Source: Bacteroidota bacterium (GTDB lineage: Bacteria > Bacteroidota > Bacteroidia > Palsa-948). From it: DNA of 39,183 bases. Shown here piece after piece: positions 16,085-17,566 of the stretch; positions within the stretch are counted from its first letter, which is position 1, and each line of letters begins with the position of its first letter. The stretch is taken from positions 1-39,183 of the forward strand of contig JACRAL010000199.1 of NCBI GenBank assembly GCA_016213435.1, read 5' to 3'. Below the pieces are notes generated by a model that worked only from the letters and a program-made list of their open reading frames with translations, did not search any database and was not told the DNA's origin. The translations under genes were made by a program, and so were the position numbers.

Positions 16085-17566
16085 ATGAAAAAAGTTTTTT
16101 ATTACCTATTGTCTACTGTCTACTGTCTACTGTCTACTGTTGCTTCCTCCCAAACATGGCATCAGCTTTCAGGATTTTCGCCCTATATGCCTGGTATGGG
16201 GTGGGTGCAATGCATCAAACAAATAAATGGTAAGTTATATATAGGAGGTGCATTCGGAGGTCATTGTCCTGACCAGCCTCCTCCTTATTCGTCTGGTGAA
16301 AGTCCAGGAGGTAATTGCATTGCAACTTTCGATGGAACTACTTGGGACTCTTTGGGACATGGAGTGTATGGCTTGGTGCATGCCATAGAATATTACAACG
16401 GAGAAATTTATGCAGGATATGATGGAGAGAGTGGACATAGTTACGCATGCACCGGACAGTATTGGCCGAATGACTTTGTTCACAATACAACAAGCATTGC
16501 TAAATGGAATGGAACACAGTGGAAGGCGGTTGATAGTGTATTGTCTTCGTATGGTTATTATGATGTGCTTGCTCTTCAATACAAAAATGATTTATACATA
16601 GGAGGGAATTTTATAGATATTCCTACTATTAATGGCAATGCAAAAAGCATAATCAAGTATAATGGAAGTACAACAGACAATATGTTAGGCGGATTGGATT
16701 GGGGTATTGGAGGAAATGAGGTCAGGTCAATGGTGGTATGGAATGGTGAATTGTATGTAGCAGGTGCATTTAATACGGCTGGCGGTGTCCCCTGCCATAA
16801 TATTGCAAAATGGAATGGCACTAAATGGGATTCAGTGGGAGGAGGAGTGGATGCGAATGGAATGATTATGTCTTTGGCTCTTGATTCCGTTAACAATGTT
16901 TTGTATGCTGCTGGGTATTTTGAATCAGTAGGAGGAGTGCCTGCTCATTCTGTTGCGAAATGGGATGGAAGCAATTGGTCTGCTCTGGGAATTCCTCCCC
17001 AGTGGTATTATGGTTTTTCAGCAATTGGTTTGTTTAAAGGCGAAATTTATGTAGGAGGCGGAGCATTGAATAATTCACCGTATGATAGTACTTTGATTAA
17101 ATGGGATGGTTCAAAATGGACTGTAATGCCTGGCATCGTTGGAGGAACAATATGTGCGATGCAGGTATATAAAGGGAACTTTTACATCGGAGGAATAATA
17201 TCAAAAATAGATACAACCACCGTAAATGGCATTGCCTGCTATGGAGATAGTTGCCCGGGCAAGCTTATAACAATGACACTGCCCTACGCGGTGAATGAGG
17301 TAAGCAGCAATAGTTTAAAGTTTAAAGTGTTTCCTAATCCGGCAAAGAGGGAAATCAATATACAAGTGATAAGCGATAAGCCAACAGCGAATAGTGAGAA
17401 ATACATTGCGAGAATAAAAAACGCTCTTGGTCAAAATATCTTTGAGCAGAAGTTTGAGAAGGAATTGAAAATAAATACTTCTGCTTTCAAGCAAGGAATT
17501 TATTTTGTTGAGGTTTGTACAGCCGAAGGTGTGGTGTGCCATACGGAGAAGGTTGTCCTTGAATAA
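16085..17566 (+). CDS. Secreted WNGTxW-repeat protein with T9SS sorting domain
   Basis: The gene starts 3 bp after the preceding stop, so the two are very likely one operon. The signal peptide (MKKVFYYLLSTVYCLLSTVASSQ) is encoded largely by a 7-bp tandem repeat, described separately. The body, residues about 25-390, holds repeated blades of the form IAKWNGTxWDSVGGGV, with linkers such as GELYVAGAFNTAGGVP and VLYAAGYFESVGGVP, resembling the propeller-like repeats of many Bacteroidota T9SS cargo proteins. The last 80 residues (KVFPNPAKREINIQV, GIYFVEVCTAEG, EKVVLE) are the T9SS sorting domain; it contains a run SDKPTANSEK whose DNA (GCCAACAGCGAATAGTG) resembles the V-type repeats. No catalytic motif is evident, so it is probably a structural or binding surface protein. 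Confidence 0.87.
   Translation: MKKVFYYLLSTVYCLLSTVASSQTWHQLSGFSPYMPGMGWVQCIKQINGKLYIGGAFGGHCPDQPPPYSSGESPGGNCIATFDGTTWDSLGHGVYGLVHAIEYYNGEIYAGYDGESGHSYACTGQYWPNDFVHNTTSIAKWNGTQWKAVDSVLSSYGYYDVLALQYKNDLYIGGNFIDIPTINGNAKSIIKYNGSTTDNMLGGLDWGIGGNEVRSMVVWNGELYVAGAFNTAGGVPCHNIAKWNGTKWDSVGGGVDANGMIMSLALDSVNNVLYAAGYFESVGGVPAHSVAKWDGSNWSALGIPPQWYYGFSAIGLFKGEIYVGGGALNNSPYDSTLIKWDGSKWTVMPGIVGGTICAMQVYKGNFYIGGIISKIDTTTVNGIACYGDSCPGKLITMTLPYAVNEVSSNSLKFKVFPNPAKREINIQVISDKPTANSEKYIARIKNALGQNIFEQKFEKELKINTSAFKQGIYFVEVCTAEGVVCHTEKVVLE
16111..16138 (+). repeat. Four perfect GTCTACT heptamers in a signal-peptide coding region
   Basis: GTCTACT is repeated four times without mismatch, beginning 26 bp after the first base of the start codon, and is flanked by imperfect units. 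A gain or loss of one unit shifts the frame, so expression could vary by strand slippage. Confidence 0.85.

Follow-up and report, generated by a model that had tools for sequence, protein, structure and literature searches.

The four GTCTACT units at positions 16111-16138 of the window (the whole 39,183-nt stretch of DNA that was analysed) probably form the core of a signal peptide that is itself made of repeats. They would belong to a genus-wide class of such arrays, normally held in the ON frame. Heptamer units were found in the signal-peptide DNA of unrelated genes across the genus, a member of the class Bacteroidia, with the sequences GTCTACT, CTGCCAT, GGCTTCT, TTTTCAC, GCAATCT, CTTAATT, and ATCGCTT. 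Short tandem repeats that lie within genes and whose unit is not a multiple of three are usually taken as phase-variation switches. If our reading is correct, export signals can be built stably from such repeats, since a heptamer free of stops gives one peptide in every frame.

The perfect tandem array (GTCTACT)x4 lies on the forward strand at 16111..16138 and encodes LSTVYCLLST, codons 9-18 of the open reading frame 16085-17566, exactly where the preliminary description had placed four perfect units. The period-7 run around it covers 16110-16140 (31 nt, 4.4 units), and a single copy of a degenerate unit, ACCTATT, lies 5′ of the array. About 2.6e-10 runs as long as this one are expected by chance in a 39-kb window of the same composition. 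In all three forward frames, the GTCTACT repeat yields the same cyclic peptide, VYCLLST, while every reverse frame contains a stop. Frame computation on the open reading frame revealed that it remains open with 1, 4, or 7 units and that 2, 3, 5, or 6 units lead to a stop after 44-51 residues. This agrees with the earlier claim that a change of one unit shifts the frame, and the window array shares the non-triplet, frame-shifting unit of translational slipped-strand contingency loci. The window as a whole has an excess of period 7 (7 runs with 8 or more matches against 0.9 expected), as does, with several unit sequences, a 250-kb sample from the genome to which the window belongs. Among the period-7 runs of the window are two adjoining intergenic arrays at 35226..35304, TTAGATA x2.9 and AACTTTA x3.4, to which no strand is assigned.

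The carrier gene (16085..17566, forward strand) encodes a secreted beta-propeller protein of 493 aa, according to its translation and domain matches. Its N-terminus consists of MKKVFYYLLSTVYCLLSTVASS followed by QTW. Read from the translation, MKKVFYYLLSTVYCLLSTVASS (16085..16150, forward strand) is likely a Sec signal peptide, with predicted cleavage before Q23, and the array would be its hydrophobic core. The C-terminus displayed a type IX secretion sorting domain, Por_Secre_tail, at residues 415-484 (17327..17536, forward strand; PF18962 E 1.3e-10, TIGR04183 E 2.3e-8). Together with the N-terminal Sec signal peptide, the latter by sequence reading, this identifies the protein as type IX secretion cargo. 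The gene had been described beforehand as that of a surface protein, and the Por_Secre_tail/TIGR04183 C-terminus and the beta-propeller matches confirm that its product is secreted or surface-located. Upstream, at 9134..16081 on the same strand, lies a gene for a secreted protein of 2315 aa with FG-GAP, RCC1, and PKD domains and a sorting tail, as indicated by translation and domain matches. A large secreted gene likewise precedes the C198 paralogue of the carrier and its orthologues in genomes G005, G006, and G013. Within the 2315-aa protein, three in-frame tandem copies of 249 bp (12323-13101) encode PKD/SprB-like repeats.

Elsewhere in the genome, the exact 14-mer of the GTCTACT array recurs once, in the signal-peptide DNA of the C198 paralogue. 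The array of this paralogue, TTGTCTATTGTCTACTGTCTACTGTCTATT, is equal in length to that of the window, and its units carry substitutions. Signal peptides different from that of the window gene occur in its closest homologues (G005, G006, and G013), and the one in the G005 orthologue includes a palindromic element. In two orthologue pairs, the signal-peptide length is equal despite substitutions inside the units.

We searched seven congeneric genomes, including G000, G002, G003, and G005, with a 17-mer of the unit, allowing at most 2 mismatches. There were 14 matches in G000, 19 in G005, 28 in G002, and 38 in G003, with 0-1 in the other three congeners, and overlapping matches were merged into 69 GTCTAYT sites that were examined. 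At 41 of the 69 sites, the array is part of the in-frame N-terminus of unrelated genes, among which are OmpA-like, GldH, and S46 peptidase genes. These N-terminal arrays form type I signal peptides with FSQ or FAQ ends and lipoprotein signals with SSC or ACS ends. The other 28 sites are intergenic, lie in 5′ regions, or fall in stretches coding on the opposite strand. Four units are the commonest length, both among the N-terminal arrays (28/41) and at the non-coding sites (15/28). When YCLLST was allowed any codons, 39 of 48 matches (manual count) used the heptamer's own codons, so the pattern exists at the level of DNA and not of the peptide alone. Meanwhile, exact three-unit arrays in 80 DNA stretches of many phyla were N-terminal in 7 of 83 cases, and the difference from 41 of 69 in the genus (Fisher p 1e-11) is indicative only, given that the two sets were selected differently.

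The orthologues of thirteen genes that have a signal-peptide array in one species provided a view of how these sequences change. Among 43 non-query signal peptides from these families, which were picked because one member bears a GTCTAYT array, 25 displayed at least 16 matches out of 21 at lag 7, and at the remaining lags between 4 and 13 none of the 43 reached this level. For codon shuffles, the corresponding mean was 0.03. Mismatches per unit amounted to 0.72 within arrays and to 2.44 between orthologues (best of seven rotations), as compared to 3.35 for random T-rich heptamers. The S46 peptidase orthologues have a signal peptide of 21 residues in 4/4 species, with the units TATTGTC, TTTAATT, CTTAATT, and ATCGCTT, and for the GldH signal peptide the unit is GTCTACT in G005 and, in a perfect array, GGCTTCT in G002. 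Orthologues have signal peptides of the same or nearly the same length. Judged from these sequences, the process is one of concerted evolution, in which the unit appears to be swapped across all copies of an array of nearly fixed length. A fixed 30-bp insertion was considered as the origin of the arrays and rejected, as the orthologues display no corresponding added length.

For an unbiased test of whether signal peptides are enriched in period 7, we chose stretches of G000, G001, and G003 by contig number, while G002, G004, G005, and G006 were left out. A reversed-heptamer pattern was discarded as a control because it matches another heptamer family, CTGCCAT (AICHLPS), which likewise occurs in signal peptides; other lags, codon shuffles, transmembrane segments, and other families were used instead. 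The samples are modest, with one assembly per genome and crude gene and signal-peptide calls, and within them autocorrelation at lags 7, 14, and 21 over 199 signal peptides of the genus gave z=7.6, 6.1, and 4.1 against codon shuffles, versus 1.5, 2.4, and 0.9 in 118 signal peptides of 21 genomes from other families of the class. Lags 5 and 6 were mildly raised in signal peptides too. No lag-7 excess was seen in transmembrane segments or mid-coding DNA. Array density in the genus was 0.78/kb in signal peptides, 0.12 in intergenic DNA, and 0.03 in other coding DNA. Arrays were detected in 13 of 199 signal peptides of the genus and in 0 of 118 from the other families (Fisher p 0.0025), where 13 arrays were intergenic. 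The sample of 23 signal peptides from G003 contained no array at threshold, so the effect is uneven. In some signal peptides the n-region is built from one unit and the h-region from another, as exemplified by MIQKSKVKSQKLKVLFLFFIFHFSFFIF. At loci L356 (10216-10307), L388 (6079-6190), and L339, one heptamer array makes up the basic n-region and a different one the hydrophobic region.

Based on these findings, we propose that tandem 7-nt units would arise and be homogenised in signal-peptide DNA through replication slippage or intra-array conversion. A stop-free heptamer encodes one cyclic heptapeptide in all frames, and hydrophobic units would supply a working h-region from any entry frame; downstream, only the total length of the array modulo 3 would count. 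The h-region may tolerate any hydrophobic stop-free heptamer, which would be the reason for the location of the arrays. The length would be fixed at ~4 units by selection on export and on the frame downstream, with continued turnover of the unit sequence, and the array of the window would serve the export of a type IX secretion cargo protein. Turnover would need transient OFF states, three-unit events, or conversion, since a slip of a single unit leads out of frame. The same point speaks against the reading of the array as a stable core, because concerted turnover by single slips requires out-of-frame intermediates, which favours some switching. A bolder version, which we put forward tentatively and regard as the less probable course, is that signal-peptide DNA in the genus is a length-locked heptanucleotide array whose units are replaced in concert through out-of-frame intermediates, with period and frame retained, and that much of the secretome thereby diversifies its export signals rapidly and can be switched transiently.

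The preliminary description had proposed a phase-variable switch, that is, a contingency locus in which slipped-strand mispairing alters the number of units and a frameshift turns the protein ON or OFF; in the strong form, the whole heptamer class would switch stochastically. Part of this proposal stands, as the non-triplet repeat does lie within signal-peptide DNA of a secreted protein and does shift the frame, with truncation after a few dozen residues upon gain or loss of one unit. The units turn over between species, hence the arrays mutate, and 7-nt steps separate Cyanothece strains in intergenic heptamer arrays (PMC4679880). In Haemophilus influenzae, the surface protein gene hmw1A is linked to, and switched by, a 7-bp tandem repeat (PMC8262952). 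However, the ATCTTTC repeat of hmw1A lies in the promoter/5′ UTR, has 11-24 units, and tunes transcription (PMC8262952), whereas the array of the window has 4 units and lies in coding sequence. A dedicated switch is also at odds with the occurrence of the array in a genus-wide class whose lengths are kept in the paralogue and the orthologues. Many of the carriers are conserved cell-envelope genes (OmpA-like, GldH, S46 peptidase), which extends the class beyond variable surface proteins. Free switching would leave about two thirds of the loci OFF, whereas the frame is intact at each of the 41 N-terminal arrays, and inspection of the 28 other sites in three frames found no clear out-of-frame (OFF) allele; the coexistence of ON and OFF alleles among comparable loci, as in contingency loci, was thus not observed. 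Two candidate OFF alleles were rejected: L133 is a short intact protein, and the frame break at L108 appears downstream of the array and not at it. Turnover by single-unit slips would, on the other hand, pass through OFF states, which leaves some room for switching. On balance, we regard the switch reading as weakened and unlikely, and we infer an absence of regulated switching.

Local slippage alone does not account for units shared by unrelated genes. A second explanation, dispersal, holds that arrays are copied between loci by gene conversion, template switching, or a mobile repeat, survive in signal peptides and intergenic DNA, and replace an older signal peptide in one step. Recurrence of a few units in many unrelated genes is what such copying would produce, and the 4-unit peak at non-coding sites and the palindromic elements that likewise sit within signal peptides of the genus point in the same direction, as do the inverted pairs formed by ~16/69 sites. 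Against this, a search for conserved flanks as the mark of a mobile unit found nothing shared past a TT before the array, orthologues show no fixed added length, and no transposase or donor was found. We consider dispersal improbable, to a similar degree as the switch. Chance, an assembly artefact, or the low complexity of hydrophobic codons is very hard to sustain as an explanation: signal peptides are indeed low in complexity and lags 5 and 6 are mildly raised, but a lag of 7 does not correspond to whole codons, nothing similar is seen after codon shuffling or at other lags, synonymous codons track the heptamer, next to no run of this length is expected in the window, and the C198 paralogue bears its array on a separate contig.

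The reading of the array as a signal-peptide core can be compared with several known systems. The opa genes of Neisseria carry many copies of a CTCTT pentamer in their signal peptides, and their switching is proven. Arrays of the genus resemble those of opa in placing a non-triplet repeat within the signal-peptide DNA of surface proteins; they differ in being heptamers, in occupying dozens of genes, and in being all in frame. The arrays also resemble the cyanobacterial STRRs, the TAACTGA repeats of Beggiatoaceae, Cyanobacteria, and some Bacteroidetes (PMC4679880), and the GGGAATC/GGGGATT repeats of Xanthomonas and Nostoc (PMC4692102), all of which have a 7-nt unit, few copies per set, and many dispersed sets per genome. 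In the survey of Mrazek 2007, as cited in PMC4679880, most bacterial genomes had heptanucleotides as their commonest long simple repeats. Accordingly with STRRs, the 7-nt tandem unit is over-represented relative to other unit lengths, and many dispersed sets occur per genome. In STRR-type repeats one unit is found in distant taxa, and changes by 7-nt steps between strains have been reported (PMC4679880). Heptanucleotide repeats of Beggiatoaceae (PMC4679880) and of Xanthomonas and Nostoc (PMC4692102) are described as lying mostly between genes, and many STRR-type sets lie just 5′ of start codons. Unlike them, the arrays of the genus form signal-peptide DNA, where their density is highest, use many different units, and hold length and frame among orthologues; the arrays of the other families examined are intergenic. 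The repeats of archaeal Borgs provide another parallel, as fast-evolving tandem repeats of DNA that become protein segments and are enriched in secreted proteins (PMC9879509). Units within Borg ORFs are all multiples of three and encode disordered regions (PMC9879509), whereas those of the genus have 7 nt and encode the hydrophobic core of signal peptides.

Heptamer repeats are thus known already, and arrays that make up signal peptides appear to be undescribed; no description of them was found in the open-access literature, which is weak evidence of absence. If the arrays are indeed stable export signals, surveys that detect phase variation by repeat period only would overcall switches in such genomes. 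The question of why seven is a favoured length for long repeat units in bacteria would also become testable, as one locus can be traced across species with different units.

Other arrangements of heptamer arrays were observed in the genus. Arrays occur as inverted pairs at L112, L099, and L097 (G003) and at L116 and L106 (G003), where they lie between divergent genes whose signal peptides both bear arrays or form intergenic hairpins with arms 8-14 nt apart. An inverted-repeat (hairpin) element was rejected as the general form of the arrays, as an upstream inverted partner accompanies only the minority of sites mentioned above and the array of the window has none. At L104, L143, and L144 (G003, G005), reverse-oriented heptamer arrays lie within genes of the opposite strand, and two of these, in G003 and G005, resemble one TonB-like linker when the peptides are read by eye.

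The window and its relatives contain further repeats. A palindromic family with the core CCCTCTCCNNNGGAGAGGG occurs in frame within protein-coding genes, giving peptides such as SPQPSPKERG, NPSPGGEG, and PLGKGGDG. Its behaviour resembles that of the Rickettsia palindromic elements. Counting each site on both strands, G000 has 42 palindromic sites and G003 has 78, versus 0 for the reversed control. Examples in the window lie at 15940-15980, about 22200-22330, 35782-37002, and 37964-38692. The family is also present in the C-termini of the C198 paralogues (L053) and, in the G005 orthologue, within the signal peptide; the window gene lacks it. Finally, an intergenic array at 1009-1215 of the window consists of about ten 21-bp units with the consensus TGCAGCACGCACCAGTCATTA and a higher-order period of 42 bp. 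Its unit equals 3 x 7 nt, and long open reading frames extend across the array on both strands.
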